From: Hyalangium gracile
Lineage (GTDB): Bacteria > Myxococcota > Myxococcia > Myxococcales > Myxococcaceae
Assembly (NCBI RefSeq): GCF_020103725.1
Contig: NZ_JAHXBG010000042.1
Span: 1-64,000, forward strand
Reading direction: 5' to 3'
Length of the DNA: 64,000 bases
How positions within the stretch are numbered: position 1 is the first letter of the stretch; each line of letters starts with the position of its first letter. The position numbers and the translations under genes are program-made. This document shows, piece by piece, positions 24,908 to 30,981 of this stretch. The notes below the pieces were generated by a model. The model worked only from the letters and a program-made list of their open reading frames with translations. It had not been told where the DNA came from and searched no databases.

Positions 24908-26698
24908 CTAGGGGCCGACCTTGAACTCGTGGACGGGGTGGGACTGGAAGGACAAGCCCACCATGATGCCGAGCACATATCGGCCGGGCTTGTCCGGGGC
25001 CTGGAGGAAGAGGCTCACCTTGCCCTTGGACTGGATGTGCTTGGAGCCGAGGCGCTCCGCCTTCACGCCGCCATTCTTCTGGAAGTCCTCGGCCTCCATG
25101 ATGATGACGCGTCCCGCGCCCGCCTTGCCGTTCGGGTCGAAGTCGTCCGGGGTGCGCACCGTGAACGAGATGCCATCCCCGGGCTTGTACGTGGACCCCA
25201 GGCCGCTGAACTCGAAGGAGTAGCGCCTGACAGGCGGGGCAGCGCCGAACGGGATGGCGGGCCCCTTGTAGATCTGCTCCTTCAAGTCCTTCGGAGCGAT
25301 GGCCGGTCCCGTATGCGAGGAGTCTGGCGAGACGGCGGTCGGCCCCCTGCCGGCGAGCGCCTCGAGCAGGGCCTTGATGCCCTCCTTGATGCCCTCCCCC
25401 ACTCCGCTGGCGATGGCGTCGTCGAGCTTCTTCTTCGCCTCGTCGTTGGGGAGGAAGGGCTGGATCTTCACCACGAGATCCCTCAGCTCTCGCACGAGCG
25501 GATCCCGCTTCACCGCATCTCCCGCGGCGGGGATGAGCTCGGCCAATTCGTTGAGCCGCCGGGTCATCGCGGGCGGCACGGAGCCGAGCGCCGGGGCGGG
25601 CGCTGCTTCCTTCTTGGGAGGAAGCGCGGGCCCCTGCTGAGGAGGAGGCGTGCTCGGCGATGGCATGGGAGGAGGAGGCGCGACCGTGGCGCTCGCCCTC
25701 TGGATGTGGACCTCGACGCGTCGGTTGAACCGGTTCTCGCTCGGGGTGTCGACCGCCAGCGCCGACTTCCCCAGGCTCACGGCCTTCACCTGCCCCTGCG
25801 CCTGGGCGGGGAGCTTGGACAGCAGCTTCTGCCGGACGCTCTCCGCCCTCGCCTGTCCGAGGGCCAGGTTGCGCTCCGGGCTGTCGACGGCATCCGTGTG
25901 CCCCACGAGGAGGATGGAACCGCCGGAGCCGAGCGGGTTCGCGGCCAGCTCCGCCACCAGCGCATCGATCTGCTTCTCGTGCTCGGGGGTGAGCGAGGAG
26001 CCGCCGAAGGCGAAGCTGTCCAGGGTGTACTGGCCCTTGGCCGCGGGAATCTTCGCGTCGGGCTCGGCCGCCGGCGCCTTCTTCTCGTCCTCGCGCTGGA
26101 TGGCCAGGGAGGGCGGCGAACCGGCATGGCCCAGGGAGGCATCCAGCACCGCCTCGCTCGACTCTCCGCGCACCACCTTGTCCGCGACCGCGTCCGCGTG
26201 GTGCTCGTGGCGATCTCCCGACTGCCCCACTCCGCCAGCGGGAACCACGCCGGCCCGCTGCTGGAGCGCGTGCGCCGCCTCGTGCGCCGCGGTGTGGAGG
26301 CTCGGCGCTCCGGCGAACGCGACGTGGTGGCCCATCGTGAACGCCTTCGCGCCCATCGCCCGCGAGCCCTGCTCCGCCGCCGCGCCGGTGTGGGCCACGA
26401 CGCCGGACACGTCATGCCTTCCGAACGACTTCTGGATCTGCTCGAAGTAGGGCAGCCCTCCGCCCGCTCCGCTCGTGCCGAGCCTCGCCGCCTGATGAAC
26501 CGCCGCGCTGTCCCGGGCTTCCGGAGCGTGGGCTGGTGACACGGACTCCGAGGCGCTGGCCCTCTTGGCCTGCACGCGACTCGCCCCGTAGATCCATTGC
26601 TCGTGGAGCGCGCCGGGTGACGACGAGCGGGAGCGCTCGTGCGCTACGGGCCTCTGGCCCCCTGCCATCGGTTCAGGACGTCCTTTCCGATCGAACAT
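24908..26698 (-). CDS. DUF4157 (eCIS-core metallopeptidase-like) fused to an OmpA domain
   Basis: 596 residues without signal peptide; ATG preceded by GAGGTG. About residues 75-165 form a DUF4157 domain with HTAAHEAAHALQQRAG, which contains an H-E-x-x-H zinc-protease motif; the region ends in SGDRHEHHADAVAD, another DUF4157 hallmark. Residues about 220-335 are an OmpA-like peptidoglycan-binding domain (LVGHTDAVDSPERNLALGQARAESV and ENRFNRRVEVHI). A Pro-rich linker (about 338-375), a helical part and a beta-rich C-terminal domain (about 480-596) follow. DUF4157 is strongly associated with extracellular contractile injection systems and their cargo; no such system is in this window. It lies 38 bases after the DUF6285 gene on the same strand and may share its transcript. 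Confidence 0.8.
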   Translation of the reverse strand: MFDRKGRPEPMAGGQRPVAHERSRSSSPGALHEQWIYGASRVQAKRASASESVSPAHAPEARDSAAVHQAARLGTSGAGGGLPYFEQIQKSFGRHDVSGVVAHTGAAAEQGSRAMGAKAFTMGHHVAFAGAPSLHTAAHEAAHALQQRAGVVPAGGVGQSGDRHEHHADAVADKVVRGESSEAVLDASLGHAGSPPSLAIQREDEKKAPAAEPDAKIPAAKGQYTLDSFAFGGSSLTPEHEKQIDALVAELAANPLGSGGSILLVGHTDAVDSPERNLALGQARAESVRQKLLSKLPAQAQGQVKAVSLGKSALAVDTPSENRFNRRVEVHIQRASATVAPPPPMPSPSTPPPQQGPALPPKKEAAPAPALGSVPPAMTRRLNELAELIPAAGDAVKRDPLVRELRDLVVKIQPFLPNDEAKKKLDDAIASGVGEGIKEGIKALLEALAGRGPTAVSPDSSHTGPAIAPKDLKEQIYKGPAIPFGAAPPVRRYSFEFSGLGSTYKPGDGISFTVRTPDDFDPNGKAGAGRVIIMEAEDFQKNGGVKAERLGSKHIQSKGKVSLFLQAPDKPGRYVLGIMVGLSFQSHPVHEFKVGP

Positions 26699-26736: not shown

Positions 26737-27111
26737 TCACTCCGTGCGCTCTCTGAGTGCCTTCGGACTGCTCTCCGCGGCCTTGGCGCGGGTGGTCGCC
26801 CACAGGTGGGCGAAGACCGCAGCCCGGTCGGCCGAGCCTGGATCGAAGCGCCCGGCCCGGATGTCCGAGGCCAGCCGTCGCTCCAGGACGGACAGCTCGC
26901 TTCCGTCATCGCCATAGAGGGCGGCGAGTCGGTGCCGCGCGGCCTCGAGCGGCGCCTGGCCAGCCGCGGCCTGCCGTGCGGCGATGCCGATGGCATTCAG
27001 CACCATGCGCGCCTGGTAGGTCAGCTCCTGGGGCAGGGCCGGCAGCAGCGTGTCGGAGAGCACCGCCTGGGCGGCCTCCAGCAGCTCGTGGGCGATGGGC
27101 CTGTCACGCAT
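26737..27111 (-). CDS. DUF6285 protein, probable partner of the APH-like kinase (LvaB-like)
   Basis: 124-residue helical protein with the DUF6285 pattern: start RDRPIAHELLEAAQAVL, middle YQARMVLNAIGIAARQ, later RRLASDIRAGRFDPG. Its ATG overlaps the stop of the preceding APH-fold kinase gene (ATGCGTGA, 8-base overlap), indicating translational coupling. In the Pseudomonas lva pathway a small protein, LvaB, is needed for activity of the APH-like kinase LvaA; the size, order and overlap here fit that role. Identity with LvaB is inferred from context, not from alignment. Confidence 0.75.
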   Translation of the reverse strand: MRDRPIAHELLEAAQAVLSDTLLPALPQELTYQARMVLNAIGIAARQAAAGQAPLEAARHRLAALYGDDGSELSVLERRLASDIRAGRFDPGSADRAAVFAHLWATTRAKAAESSPKALRERTE

Positions 27112-28123
27112 GCTCGTGCTCCCGTGTCATCTCCAGGAGGTCCAGCTCCAGCGCCGGCAGGATGTGCGCCGTCAGCGCCAGCTCCAGGTTGCTCTCCCCA
27201 CCCGAGACGTGCCGCTCGGCTTGTTGGAGGGCGATGATCGCCCAGCGCATGGTCGCCATGGCCTCCCAGTAGGGAACCCGGGCACGGTCGATGGTGGCTC
27301 CGCTCTCGCGCTCGTAGCCGCGATAGAAGTCCTCGCGCGCGCCGAGCCCTCCCGCCTCTCGCTCCAGGGCGCCGAAGCGCCAGCACGGAGCGCAGAACCA
27401 TCCGATGTCGGCCAGCGGGTCGCCCCAGCCGGCGAACTCCCAGTCGAGGATTCCGGTCACGCCCCGCGCGTCGACCATGATGTTGCCGGTGCGAAAGTCA
27501 TTGTGGCAGAGGGTCGGCCGAGGCGTGTCGGACGCGTGGCGCTCCAGCCAGCGCAGGCCCCACTCGAGCGCGGGGTGCGCCGCCTCGTGCCGGTCGAGCC
27601 AGCCACGAAAGTCGGCGATCCACCGACGCGCCAGGCTGACCGGCGGCGCTCCCAGGAAGGCCAGCTCCGCGCGCGGCGGACGGATGGAGTGGATGCGCGC
27701 CAGCTCCCGCCCCAGCCTCTCGGTCAGTGCCACCCGTCCTCCTCCAGCGGCCGCGTCCTTCACCAGCCGATGCCCCGCGGCGGTGCCGCTGACGCGACGC
27801 ATGACGAGGAGCGGCTTGCCGAGCACGACGCCTTGCGCGTCCTGCCACAGCGGCTCGGGCACCGTCACTCCGGCGGCGAAGGCGGCCTGGAACAGGGCGA
27901 ACTCCTGGGGCCGCCCCATGCTGACCGCCACCCCCGAGGGCGCGTCGGTGCGCACGACCAGCGCCTGACGGCCGTCCAGCGGCCCGCCCGTGAAGGCCAC
28001 CTCCAGTGCCCAGTTCTCCTGGATGGCTCCACCGGACAGCCGGGAGAGGGAGAGGATCTCCGCGTCCCTCGCCTCGGCCTGGGAGGCGAGCCAGACCGCC
28101 AGTGCCGCGCGCCGGGCCTCCAT
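27104..28123 (-). CDS. APH-fold phosphotransferase, probable 4-hydroxyacyl-CoA kinase (LvaA/ACAD10-11-like)
   Basis: 339-residue protein with the aminoglycoside phosphotransferase fold: ALVVRTD (nucleotide Lys replaced by Arg-containing strand), LLVMRRVSG hinge, catalytic CHNDFRTGNIMV and metal motif GILDWEFAGWGDP. The ATG shares its A with the TGA of the upstream acyl-CoA dehydrogenase gene (TGATG), so translation is coupled. The same pairing is known in animal ACAD10/ACAD11, which fuse an APH domain to an acyl-CoA dehydrogenase, and in lvaA-lvaC of Pseudomonas, where the kinase phosphorylates the 4-hydroxyl of acyl-CoAs. An antibiotic-resistance role is therefore unlikely. Confidence 0.85.
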   Translation of the reverse strand: MEARRAALAVWLASQAEARDAEILSLSRLSGGAIQENWALEVAFTGGPLDGRQALVVRTDAPSGVAVSMGRPQEFALFQAAFAAGVTVPEPLWQDAQGVVLGKPLLVMRRVSGTAAGHRLVKDAAAGGGRVALTERLGRELARIHSIRPPRAELAFLGAPPVSLARRWIADFRGWLDRHEAAHPALEWGLRWLERHASDTPRPTLCHNDFRTGNIMVDARGVTGILDWEFAGWGDPLADIGWFCAPCWRFGALEREAGGLGAREDFYRGYERESGATIDRARVPYWEAMATMRWAIIALQQAERHVSGGESNLELALTAHILPALELDLLEMTREHEHA

Positions 28124-29325
28124 CACACTCCCCAGCTCCAGAAGTCCCTGCCCTCTTTCTGGAGGCTGCGGAACAGGACCATCTTGTGCACCTCCGAGGC
28201 ACCGTCGACCAGCCGGGCCTGACGGGCATAGCGGTACATCCACTCCAGCGGGGTGTCCTTGGAGTAGCCACGGGCGCCGTTGAGCTGGATGGCGGTGTCG
28301 ATGGCCTGGTGCAGAGCGTCGGCGACGACGATCTTGGCCATGCTGACCTCCTTCCGGGCGAAGTCCCCGGCATCGAGCTTCCATGCGGCCTTCATCGTCA
28401 GCAGGCGGCCGATCTCGATCTGGAGCGCGGCGTCGCCCAGCAGGGTCTGCACGCTCTCGTGCTCGGCCAGCGTCTGCCCGAAGGCGAGCCGGTCACGCAC
28501 ATACTCTCCACCGATCTCCAGGGCTCGCCGCGCCAGCCCCAGCCAGCGCATGCAGTGGGTGAGCCGGGCGGTGCCCAGGCGGATCTGCGTTGCCTTCAGG
28601 CCGTCTCCGACGTTCATCAGCCGGTTCGCGTCGGGGACCTCGAGGCCCTCGTAGACCAGCTCGCAGTGTCCGCCGTGCTCCTCTGGCCCCATGATCGGAA
28701 TGCGTCGCTCGATGCGCCAGCCGGGGTCGTCGCGGTGGTGGAGGAAGCAGGTCAGCCCGGTCCGGGGGTCGTCGGAGGTGCGGGCGACCACGATGAAGTG
28801 GGACGCCGCCGCAGCCCCGGTGATGAACCACTTGCGGCCGGTGATGAACCAGGTGTCGCCCTTCTTCTCGGCGCGGGTGAGCATCATGCCTCCCGGGTCG
28901 GAGCCGGAGCCGGGACGGGGCTCTGTCATGGCGAATGAGCTGCGCACCGCGCCATCGACGATGGGCTGCAGCCAGCGCTCCTTCTGCTCGGGGGTGCCCA
29001 CCTTCTCCAGCAGCATCATGTTGCCGTCGTCGGGCGCGGCGGCGTTGAAGCAGACGGGGCCGAAGATGGAGCGGTTCATCTCCTCATAGAGGGCAGCCAT
29101 CCCGACGACGCCGAGCCCCAGGCCACCGCGCGCCCTGGGCATCTGCGGCGCCCAGAGCCCGGCCTCCTTGACCCTGGCGCGGACCGCCCGTAGCGCGTCC
29201 TCGTGGATGTTCTCGTGGTCGTCCCGGGCGGTGGGGTCGCTCTCCAGCGGGATGATGTGGGTCTCGACGAAGGCGCGCACGCGGGCACGCAGAGCGTCGA
29301 CTTCGGGGGACAGGGAAAAGTCCAT
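28123..29325 (-). CDS. acyl-CoA dehydrogenase family protein (LvaC-like)
   Basis: 400-residue flavoenzyme of the acyl-CoA dehydrogenase superfamily. N-terminal helical domain from MDFSLSPEV; middle beta-domain with SFAMTEPRPGSGSDP and WFITGRKWFITGA; C-terminal helices with LAFGQTLAEHESVQ (FAD-binding), QLNGARGYSKDTPLEWMYR and ARQARLVDGASEVHK. I chose the ATG at 29325, preceded by GAGGAG and 10 bases after the SDR stop, over an in-frame start 39 bases earlier that would overlap the SDR gene. With the downstream APH-like kinase it probably converts 4-phosphoacyl-CoA to the enoyl/3-hydroxyacyl-CoA, as LvaC and ACAD11 do, rather than performing a simple first beta-oxidation step; that is inference from operon content. 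Confidence 0.88.
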   Translation of the reverse strand: MDFSLSPEVDALRARVRAFVETHIIPLESDPTARDDHENIHEDALRAVRARVKEAGLWAPQMPRARGGLGLGVVGMAALYEEMNRSIFGPVCFNAAAPDDGNMMLLEKVGTPEQKERWLQPIVDGAVRSSFAMTEPRPGSGSDPGGMMLTRAEKKGDTWFITGRKWFITGAAAASHFIVVARTSDDPRTGLTCFLHHRDDPGWRIERRIPIMGPEEHGGHCELVYEGLEVPDANRLMNVGDGLKATQIRLGTARLTHCMRWLGLARRALEIGGEYVRDRLAFGQTLAEHESVQTLLGDAALQIEIGRLLTMKAAWKLDAGDFARKEVSMAKIVVADALHQAIDTAIQLNGARGYSKDTPLEWMYRYARQARLVDGASEVHKMVLFRSLQKEGRDFWSWGV

Positions 29326-29335
29326 GTGCGGCTCC

Positions 29336-30103
29336 TCAGAGGGAACTGACGAGATGGCCGCCATCCACCGCCAGGACCGCGCCGGTCATGTAGGCGGCGG
29401 CGTCCGAGCAGAGCAGCAGCAGCGGCCCATCGAGGTCGGCGAGTTGTCCCAGACGGCGCTGCGGGATGCGCTGGATCAGCGCCTTGCCCGCCTCGGTCTG
29501 GAAGAAGTCACGGTTGAGGTCGGTCTCGATATAGCCGGGGCACAGCGCGTTGACCTGGATGCGGTAGCGAGCCCACTCCAGGGCCAGCGCCTGGGTGAGC
29601 TGGATGAGGCCCGCCTTGGCCGCGGCGTAGTGGGACAGCATCCCGGCGACGCGCAGGCCCAGGATGGAGGCGACGTTGACGATGGTGCCGGGGCGCCCGG
29701 CGGCCTTCAGGCGCCGCGCCGCCTGCTGGGCCACGGTGAAGCAGCCGGTGAGGTTGGTGTCGAGGACGCGGCTCCACTCGTCGTGCGAGATGTCGAGGGC
29801 CGGGGCGGTGCTGGTGACTCCGGCGTTGTTGATGACCACGTCAATGACTCCGGCGGCGCTCGCGGCGGCGTCGAACGCCGCGGAGACCGAGGCGGGGTCG
29901 CGCACATCGAGGGCCACCGCATGCGCGCTCATGCCCCGTGCGCGCAGGTCGGCCACGGTGTCCTGCAACAACGACTCACGCCGGGCGGCCAGCACCACGG
30001 TGGCGCCAGCGGCTCCCAGCGTCGAGGCGAAGTGCCGCCCCAGGCCGCTGGAGGCGCCCGTGATGAGCACGTTCCTGCCGTGCAGCGAGCATGTCAGGCC
30101 CAT
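29336..30103 (-). CDS. SDR-family oxidoreductase (LvaD-like position)
   Basis: 255-residue classical short-chain dehydrogenase: cofactor motif TGASSGLG, NNAGVT, catalytic Ser in VNVASILG, YAAAK (Tyr/Lys), and C-terminal GAVLAVDGGH. First gene of the operon, starting at the ATG at 30103 behind a GGAAGGGG ribosome site; upstream in-frame codons would run through the operator. In an lva-type pathway it would interconvert 4-oxo- and 4-hydroxyacyl-CoA. It could instead be a general 3-oxoacyl reductase. It is probably repressed by the divergent TetR protein through the palindrome at 30133-30146. Confidence 0.87.
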   Translation of the reverse strand: MGLTCSLHGRNVLITGASSGLGRHFASTLGAAGATVVLAARRESLLQDTVADLRARGMSAHAVALDVRDPASVSAAFDAAASAAGVIDVVINNAGVTSTAPALDISHDEWSRVLDTNLTGCFTVAQQAARRLKAAGRPGTIVNVASILGLRVAGMLSHYAAAKAGLIQLTQALALEWARYRIQVNALCPGYIETDLNRDFFQTEAGKALIQRIPQRRLGQLADLDGPLLLLCSDAAAYMTGAVLAVDGGHLVSSL

Positions 30104-30132
30104 GACGCACCCCTTCCTGTCCGGGGAATCCG

Positions 30133-30146
30133 AACGAACGTTCGTT
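30133..30146. promoter_or_regulatory. perfect 14-base palindrome, probable TetR operator
   Basis: AACGAACGTTCGTT is its own reverse complement and sits between the divergent SDR operon and TetR gene, 30 bases upstream of the SDR start codon. The form matches operators of TetR-type regulators of fatty-acid and acyl-CoA catabolism, which use GAACG/CGTTC-like arms. It lies where it could block both promoters. Confidence 0.75.
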
Positions 30147-30213
30147 ATTATCGGGGTTGACGGGCCAGTGCTGGCAAGTCTCTTCTGAAGGAAACGTCCT
30201 CCCCCGAGCTTCC

Positions 30214-30981
30214 ATGGCGGCACGCGCGCCCACGCCCACACAAGAAGACGCCTTCGCCAGGGAGCACGGGCTCACCCTGGACGAGATCTGCGAGCGCCTG
30301 TACCAGCGGCACCGGGAGCGGATGGAGGTGAAGAAGCCCCGCACGGCGGTGGTGAACCTGGCCCGCGTGCTGCCGGCGACGCTCCGCCTGTCCGAGCAGC
30401 AGGGCTTCCACGAGATGAGCATGCGCGACCTCAGCCGGGCCTCGGGCGTGAGCCTGGGGGCGCTCTACAGCTACATCCGGGACAAGGACACCCTGCTGGA
30501 GCTGATGCTCGATGTGGTCTCCGACGCGGTGGAGCGGGTGCTGGTCACCGTGCCGGAGGAAGTACGCGCCGATCCGCGCGCCCATCTGCGGTGGATCATC
30601 CACCGCCACATCCAGCTGACCGAGGCGCTGCCCGCCTGGTTCCGGTTCGCGTATCTGGAAGCCAAGGGCTTCGGACCCTCGGCACGGAAGCGGGCCCGCC
30701 AGGAGGAATTGGCCACCGAGCGCCTCATCCACGAAGCCCTGGAGTCGGGCGTGCGGCAGGGTGTGTTCCGGAGGATGGACATCGATATGACGGCGGCGCT
30801 GATCAAGCCGCTGCTTCAGGAGTGGTATCTGAAGCGCTGGAAGTACCGCCAGCGCGACGTCTCTCCCGAGGCCTATACCGACGCCGTCATGAACCTGCTG
30901 GAGGGCAGCCTGCTCGCCGATGAGCGCCCGGACAGCGCCACCCGAGCGAAGAAGGCGCGTGCTCGAGCGAGCACGAAGTAG
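30214..30981 (+). CDS. TetR-family transcriptional regulator
   Basis: 255 residues. The N-terminal region (about 50-100) holds a TetR helix-turn-helix, RDLSRASGVSLGALYSYIRDKDTLLELML; the C-terminal part is a helical ligand domain (WIIHRHIQLTEALPAWFRFAYLE). It carries an unusual N-terminal extension of about 35 residues (EHGLTLDEICERLYQRHRERM) before the DNA-binding domain and a basic Ala/Lys tail. An in-frame TTG at 30157 exists but I prefer the ATG at 30214. Divergent from the acyl-CoA operon, with a perfect palindrome between them, it most likely represses that operon until an acyl-CoA is bound. Confidence 0.85.
   Translation: MAARAPTPTQEDAFAREHGLTLDEICERLYQRHRERMEVKKPRTAVVNLARVLPATLRLSEQQGFHEMSMRDLSRASGVSLGALYSYIRDKDTLLELMLDVVSDAVERVLVTVPEEVRADPRAHLRWIIHRHIQLTEALPAWFRFAYLEAKGFGPSARKRARQEELATERLIHEALESGVRQGVFRRMDIDMTAALIKPLLQEWYLKRWKYRQRDVSPEAYTDAVMNLLEGSLLADERPDSATRAKKARARASTK

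Follow-up and report, generated by a model that had tools for sequence, protein, structure and literature searches.

Organisation of the locus

The stretch analysed here, hereafter the window, comprises the first 64,000 nucleotides of contig NZ_JAHXBG010000042.1 of the soil myxobacterium Hyalangium gracile, whose genome of approximately 11.7 Mb is assembled in 81 contigs. Within it, four reverse-strand genes encode a short-chain dehydrogenase/reductase (SDR), an acyl-coenzyme A (CoA) dehydrogenase (ACAD), a kinase of the aminoglycoside phosphotransferase (APH) fold and a small protein of the family DUF6285 ('domain of unknown function'). They lie opposite a gene for a TetR-family regulator, with a putative operator in between. 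The tight packing of this unit, pointed out in a preliminary description of the same DNA, is confirmed by coordinates, junctions and Pfam labels alike: the SDR and ACAD genes are separated by a 10-base gap, the ACAD and kinase genes overlap by 1 base (TGATG), the kinase and DUF6285 genes by 8 bases (ATGCGTGA), and all five gene labels score above the curated Pfam cut-offs. Identities to Lva proteins refer to the lva operon of the Pseudomonas aeruginosa plasmid p12939-PER (NZ_MF344569.1), which stands in for that of P. putida KT2440 and encodes a PrpR-type regulator, a kinase, LvaB, an ACAD, an SDR, a ligase, a DUF485 protein and a symporter. The features are as follows:

30214-30981 (if the ATG start is used), forward strand: TetR-family regulator, divergent (PF00440/PF17932)
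30131-30146, no strand: putative TetR operator, the 14-mer CGAACGAACGTTCG (30131-30144) overlapping the perfect palindrome AACGAACGTTCGTT (30133-30146)
29336-30103, reverse strand: LvaD-like SDR oxidoreductase, putative 4-oxoacyl-CoA reductase (255 aa; PF13561/PF00106; 54% identity to the LvaD position)
28123-29325, reverse strand: ACAD of a separate subfamily, with residues typical of phosphate-eliminating ACAD10/11/LvaC enzymes (400 aa; PF00441/02770/02771; R249, HCMR, D374)
27104-28123, reverse strand: LvaA-type APH-fold kinase, putative 4-hydroxyacyl-CoA kinase (339 aa; PF01636, 129 bits; 49% identity to LvaA)
26737-27111, reverse strand: DUF6285 protein, LvaB-type kinase partner by homology (124 aa; PF19802, 81 bits; 45% identity to a named LvaB)

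A corresponding unit is found on a contig of Hyalangium versicolor, where the ACAD is 93% identical to that of the window, and the four-gene block recurs in Paroceanicella, Azospirillum, Corallococcus and other myxobacteria. Overall, the pattern extends across alpha-, beta- and gammaproteobacteria as well as myxobacteria; lvaABCD homologues have been reported in the same three proteobacterial classes (PMC6692424, in part).

DUF6285 belongs to the LvaB family

The window DUF6285 protein scores well above the gathering cut-off of PF19802 (28.1 bits), and a tblastn search with it against 72,556 plasmid records matched seven. Two of the matches, on P. aeruginosa plasmids and at 45% identity, are annotated 'lvaB: 4-hydroxypentanoyl-CoA kinase subunit LvaB', and the protein so named by NCBI is itself a member of PF19802 (85 bits). 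By sequence, the DUF6285 family is the LvaB family and does not merely resemble it, which bears out the earlier suggestion that the window protein is an LvaB-like partner. LvaB is a 12 kDa protein that is pulled down with LvaA and is required for growth on levulinate (Rand 2017, as related second-hand in passages of PMC6692424). A 'domain of unknown function' would thus gain a partner and a likely role, that of LvaB, tied to one kinase type only.

The predicted model of the protein has six helices (pLDDT 93, pTM 0.75). A sequence search of the PDB for a solved relative returned two chance-level matches only (E 0.46 and 0.9), and Foldseek returned three, the best at E 5.3. When six chains were compared with the model, a single row exceeded Z 5, that of Cas12m2 (Z 5.2, root-mean-square deviation (rmsd) 9.9, 93 residues aligned), a meaningless match for a helical protein, and we therefore claim the fold as neither known nor new. 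Among the positions conserved at 90% or more in 40 DUF6285 rows, the sole charged residues are R46 and R85.

The dehydrogenase has the residues of phosphate-eliminating enzymes

The window ACAD carries an aspartate where the usual catalytic glutamate stands. Its R249, H257-C-M-R260 and D374 correspond to R626, HCMR (634-637) and D753 of ACAD11, with the pattern R-x7-HCMR, and mutation of R626, H634, R637 and the catalytic D753 shows their importance for 4-phosphoacyl-CoA turnover (PMC12440821, in part). These residues are invariant in a nine-row alignment that includes the LvaC position, and the arginine, the HCMR and the aspartate are kept in 101 of 101 related ACAD frames scanned (with L130 a duplicate of L049). 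For 80 of these 101, one of the two retrieval patterns contains THCM, so that HCM was partly preselected in those 80, whereas the arginine and the aspartate were not. The best PDB sequence matches are 4hr3 and ACAD11. Judged by its residues, the protein is an ACAD of the phosphate-eliminating ACAD10/11/LvaC kind, within a subfamily of its own.

We rejected the view that it is a plain LvaC orthologue. In an ACAD tree of 89 rows, obtained by a quick search without bootstrap and rooted on the LvaC pair, a long branch parts that pair from the other 87 rows; identity is 44% to LvaC and 82% to the ACAD of Paroceanicella. The window ACAD groups with that of H. versicolor and then with Paroceanicella, both nodes being supported, inside a supported five-row set that includes Skermanella and Fodinicurvata, and apart from the ACAD of Corallococcus. 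This nesting among alphaproteobacterial relatives suggests a transfer between alphaproteobacteria and Hyalangium.

On two other contigs of the H. gracile genome (C1:314139-315347 and C37:45466-46488; loci L129 and L147) we observed a second, ACAD11-like ACAD with HCMR and DGPDEVH motifs and an ACAD11-type kinase. These may form a second, unlinked 4-hydroxyacyl-CoA route.

An LvaA-type kinase

The window kinase is 49% identical to LvaA and 49-64% identical across LvaA-type kinases, and its catalytic H207, D209, N214 and D227 are invariant in 37 LvaA-type rows. Its best PDB sequence matches are 9o56, 9fsg (25-hydroxy steroid kinase, 25-HSK) and ACAD11, with 49.5 bits to 25-HSK and 46 bits to the ACAD11 chain.

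The Pfam labels alone (APH, ACAD, SDR, DUF) would also be compatible with a fortuitous assembly of an ordinary beta-oxidation ACAD and SDR, an unrelated and possibly drug-modifying APH-type kinase, and an unrelated small protein, and the deposited names of 9o56 and 3dxp do include 'aminoglycoside phosphotransferase'. We consider such an assembly extremely improbable. Antibiotic-kinase models of NCBIfam matched far below their cut-offs (APH_3p, 26 of 205 bits; MphC, 21 of 550; MphF, 18 of 650), hygromycin-B kinase matched in the PDB sequence search only at E 4e-4, the four genes are found as a block in distant bacteria, and the ACAD has lost the usual glutamate to aspartate. An antibiotic-kinase identity was accordingly rejected, the deposited names of 9o56 and 3dxp being its caveat: that of 9o56, 'Aminoglycoside phosphotransferase', counts against a non-antibiotic reading, although the ACAD11-type kinase of Pseudosulfitobacter scores 152 bits with this structure. 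Grouping with true aminoglycoside kinases, which the preliminary description had named as the outcome that would speak against its proposal, is not what we found, the kinase scoring at most 26 bits against cut-offs of at least 205 and lying nearer to LvaA-type kinases.

A model predicted from the 37 rows (pLDDT 94, pTM 0.92) superposes best on 3dxp (Z 27.1, rmsd 3.0, 312 aligned), 25-HSK (Z 26.5, rmsd 3.6, 321 aligned, about 22% identity) and Rv3168 (Z 25.7, rmsd 3.9, 320 aligned), with choline, homoserine and drug kinases following from Z 23 down. The ACAD11 chain is not among the 50 structure matches listed, which is neutral either way. The best Foldseek matches of the model are structures of 25-HSK, tied with 3dxp by Z, and this enzyme has a part in the ATP-dependent dehydration of a tertiary alcohol (PMC8449060, in part). 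The window unit might thus apply the same chemistry of phosphorylation and elimination to a different hydroxylated compound, for instance an alcohol that is branched, cyclic or on a steroid side chain, with or without CoA attached. We regard this as improbable: the 49.5 bits to 25-HSK compare with 49-64% identity to LvaA-type kinases, the aspartate and HCMR of the ACAD point to an acyl-CoA, and the DUF6285 protein and SDR are of the lva kind.

DUF6285 follows the kinase type

Using the ACAD alignment, we fetched the 80 best of at least 577 candidate loci from 84,980 species genomes, a sample of the nearest clade only, and sorted their kinases with two profiles, one made from five LvaA-type sequences and the other from four of the ACAD11 type; these had themselves come from loci with and without DUF6285. 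The two types are well apart, the ACAD11 chain scoring 239 bits against an ACAD11-type kinase (Pseudosulfitobacter) vs 46 and 60 bits against LvaA-type ones. The loci divide into 50 with an LvaA-type kinase, 14 with an ACAD11-type kinase and 16 without a kinase match. DUF6285, detected with our own profile at a cut-off of 15 bits (weakest case the fused L083 at 19 bits, next 34), is present in 47 of the 50 LvaA-type loci, and in the other three the contig ends inside the kinase; all 47 LvaA-type kinases uncut by a contig end therefore have it adjoining or fused (46 without the one weak case). It is present in none of the 14 ACAD11-type and none of the 16 kinase-less loci. In all 44 unfused cases it lies directly downstream of the kinase on the same strand, and a Pfam scan of 39 of these together with the window protein found PF19802 in 40/40 at E 0.01. 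PF19802 also occurs in 38 of 195 Myxococcota genomes; in 29 of the 30 myxobacterial loci examined (of 38, the window's own included) an LvaA-type kinase adjoins it, the exception (L025, the same place as L142) having an ACAD and no kinase match.

The raw table (47:0 vs 0:14) gives a Fisher value of 4e-14, which is confounded by the relatedness of the loci. Across the 89-row ACAD tree, a minimum of four changes of the kinase label is required, and DUF6285 changes with it in three of three independent, well-supported pairs, too few for significance (sign test, p 0.25). DUF6285 thus follows the kinase type and not the operon, in a uniform pattern with few independent switches.

Kinase and DUF6285 share one open frame in three loci according to our profile. 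The fusion in Kushneria avicenniae (L111) is confirmed by Pfam (40.3 bits, cut-off 28.1), that in an Alcaligenaceae metagenome-assembled genome (L075) is borderline at 27.1 bits, just under the cut-off, and in L083 Pfam did not report DUF6285. The fusion of genes that are otherwise adjacent supports a complex of kinase and DUF6285. Either kinase type is accompanied by SDR and ACAD genes of similar kind, joined in several loci by a TetR that is also the same, and for this reason an ACAD11-type kinase by itself seems to be the functional equivalent of LvaA and LvaB together.

Two arginines were compared between the types. The one beside the alpha-C glutamate is present in 18/18 ACAD11-type rows, 1/51 LvaA-type rows and 1/16 further myxobacterial LvaA-like rows; that at ACAD11 R176, the second modelled CoA contact, in 18/18, 8/51 and 7/16, respectively, the window kinase being among the eight. 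The ACAD11 paper numbers the first of these R86, but in the printed chain the glutamate-adjacent arginine is residue 83, and the offset for D220 and R176 is one, which makes the identity of R86 uncertain. It seems to us an evenly balanced proposition that LvaB/DUF6285 is obligate for LvaA-type kinases, possibly completing CoA binding through R46 and R85, that ACAD11-type kinases act alone, and that operons swapped types more than once around an SDR-ACAD-TetR core; the CoA-binding idea is supported in part. That LvaA comes with LvaB, and ACAD10/11 without such a partner, becomes a directly testable question.

In units of Azospirillum, Azoarcus and Stutzerimonas (L033, L037 and L149), the gene immediately after DUF6285 encodes a histidine phosphatase. 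The last of these, on the Stutzerimonas stutzeri plasmid NZ_CP078510.1, encodes a kinase, DUF6285, a histidine phosphatase, an ACAD, an SDR and a ligase. For the P. citronellolis LA18T cluster, a histidine phosphatase and no lvaB were reported in 2019 (PMC6692424, in part). Given the association of LvaA-type kinases with DUF6285 and the layout of the S. stutzeri plasmid, a DUF6285 gene is expected in the LA18T cluster and may have been overlooked.

A conserved putative operator, and the downstream neighbour

The preliminary description had set a TetR-type regulator with a perfect palindrome against the sigma-54 regulation of lva, and both elements proved correct: the regulator carries PF00440/PF17932, and the palindrome AACGAACGTTCGTT is the sole match in 64 kb at up to two mismatches (mean of 0.03 expected by chance). 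The conserved core is formed by the 14-mer at 30131-30144, which overlaps this palindrome, and the putative operator stands 27 bases ahead of the SDR start codon. A motif, CGARCGNTCGYTCG, was drawn by eye from nine intergenic regions. In the 80 related loci, with up to one mismatch, 12 of its 18 matches fall in the roughly 300 bases ahead of the first gene, regions that make up 24.5 of the 820 kb scanned. Four of the 12 (L049, L065, L116, L118) had been used to draw the motif, seven are new, and one belongs to a locus (L050) that was inspected when drawing it, but at the wrong place. The operator CGARCGNTCGYTCG is conserved upstream of related units in Pseudomonadota. A TetR of the window's family was found in 8 of the 80 loci only, and some sites therefore lack a regulator gene within the stretch retrieved. 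The window TetR is 50% and 47% identical to TetR proteins of Aminobacter and Pseudosulfitobacter that adjoin the SDR of an SDR-ACAD pair, both in units with ACAD11-type kinases. The conserved TetR/operator pair could serve as a sensor.

On the other side of the unit, a reverse-strand gene (24908-26698) encodes a protein whose domains are eCIS_core (42 bits) and OmpA (47 bits). It starts 38 bases past the DUF6285 stop on the same strand, and could for this reason share a transcript; as a fifth member of the unit it was rejected, having no match in 106 related loci.

A proposed pathway for 4-oxo or 4-hydroxy acids

Taken together, the locus is very probably an inducible catabolic unit for 4-oxo- or 4-hydroxy-fatty acids as CoA thioesters. 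The reaction scheme is modelled on the lva and ACAD10/11 pathways (PMC11342911 and PMC12440821, each in part). The analysis demonstrates the homologies, the diagnostic residues, the coupling of the genes, the link between DUF6285 and kinase and the conservation of the operator; substrate, reaction direction, complex formation, repression and inducer are deduced. The SDR would reduce 4-oxoacyl-CoA to 4-hydroxyacyl-CoA; the LvaA-type kinase, complexed with DUF6285/LvaB, would phosphorylate the 4-hydroxyl to give 4-phosphoacyl-CoA; the ACAD, using flavin adenine dinucleotide without net oxidation, would eliminate the phosphate to yield 2-enoyl-CoA, which would enter ordinary beta-oxidation. TetR, at its operator just before the SDR gene, would repress the unit until an acyl-CoA-like ligand releases it. 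The lva-like logic first proposed stands in that all four proteins are homologous to LvaD, LvaC, LvaA and LvaB (44-54%) and lie in one block; what it did not anticipate is an ACAD from a subfamily other than that of LvaC.

Several points weigh against this interpretation. Only LvaB is so named by NCBI in the comparator operon, the other lva letters being assigned from order and homology. Identity between the ACAD and LvaC is no higher than 44%, and ACAD11 scores 209 bits with the ACAD vs 198 with LvaC; being about as close to ACAD11 as LvaC is, the window ACAD may have a different substrate. In 16 of the 80 loci with the same ACAD (L069, L071, L077, L086, L089, L097, L100, L101, L106, L108, L110, L114, L122, L123, L124 and L128), no kinase match lies in the fetched stretch, some stretches being short, so that some of these ACADs may use a distant kinase, none, or another form of alcohol activation. 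Finally, an LvaE profile finds no acyl-CoA ligase in the open frames of the window, as had been remarked at the outset. Several nearly full-length LvaE relatives (34-37% identity) are encoded elsewhere in the genome, and in P. putida growth on levulinate is abolished in lvaA, lvaB and lvaC mutants but not in an lvaE mutant (Rand 2017 via PMC6692424, in part), which suggests that a ligase missing from the cluster is no obstacle.

A sub-question, compatible with the pathway proposed here, concerns the SDR, whose direction is unreadable from sequence. It might oxidise its substrate or invert its stereochemistry, the substrate being a 4-hydroxy acid or gamma-lactone and not a 4-oxo acid like levulinate. 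The ACAD10 kinase does prefer the R form of 4-hydroxyhexanoyl-CoA (PMC11342911, in part), but the nearest relative with a reported role, LvaD (54%), reduces levulinyl-CoA (PMC6692424, in part), and we think this variant rather unlikely, though worth keeping in mind.

Relation to known systems

The phosphorylation-elimination kind of pathway is already known, and NCBI annotation already names some such proteins LvaB. In the literature covered, which did not include subscription papers such as Rand 2017, we found no mention of the myxobacterial unit, the identity of DUF6285 (nor the family by name), the kinase-type rule, the fusions or the TetR site, and some of these may therefore be in print. 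By inference, phosphorylation-based breakdown of 4-hydroxy acids is extended to myxobacteria.

Compared with the lva operon of levulinic acid catabolism, the window unit shares a homologous kinase, LvaB/DUF6285, ACAD with HCMR and aspartate, and SDR, but the gene order is D-C-A-B instead of A-B-C-D-E, the regulator is a divergent TetR with a palindromic putative operator instead of a PrpR-type (sigma-54) one, the ACAD belongs to a subfamily separate from LvaC, and the ligase, DUF485 protein and acetate symporter that accompany lva are missing from the unit. With ACAD10 and ACAD11, which act in mammalian 4-hydroxy acid catabolism, it would share the two-step chemistry, and it does share the ACAD residues; in those proteins, however, kinase and ACAD form one polypeptide, whereas in the window they are separate and the kinase is of the other type. 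25-HSK resembles the proposed system as an APH-fold kinase that activates an alcohol for elimination, its substrate being a steroid. The nearest relatives are the ACAD-kinase-DUF6285 units of the alphaproteobacteria Paroceanicella profunda, Azospirillum sp. B510 and Skermanella stibiiresistens. The Skermanella locus (L050) has TetR and operator as in the window, but no SDR match beside the ACAD; the Azospirillum unit differs by its extra histidine phosphatase gene; and P. profunda matches the window SDR, ACAD, kinase and DUF6285 at 68, 82, 64 and 51% identity, respectively.

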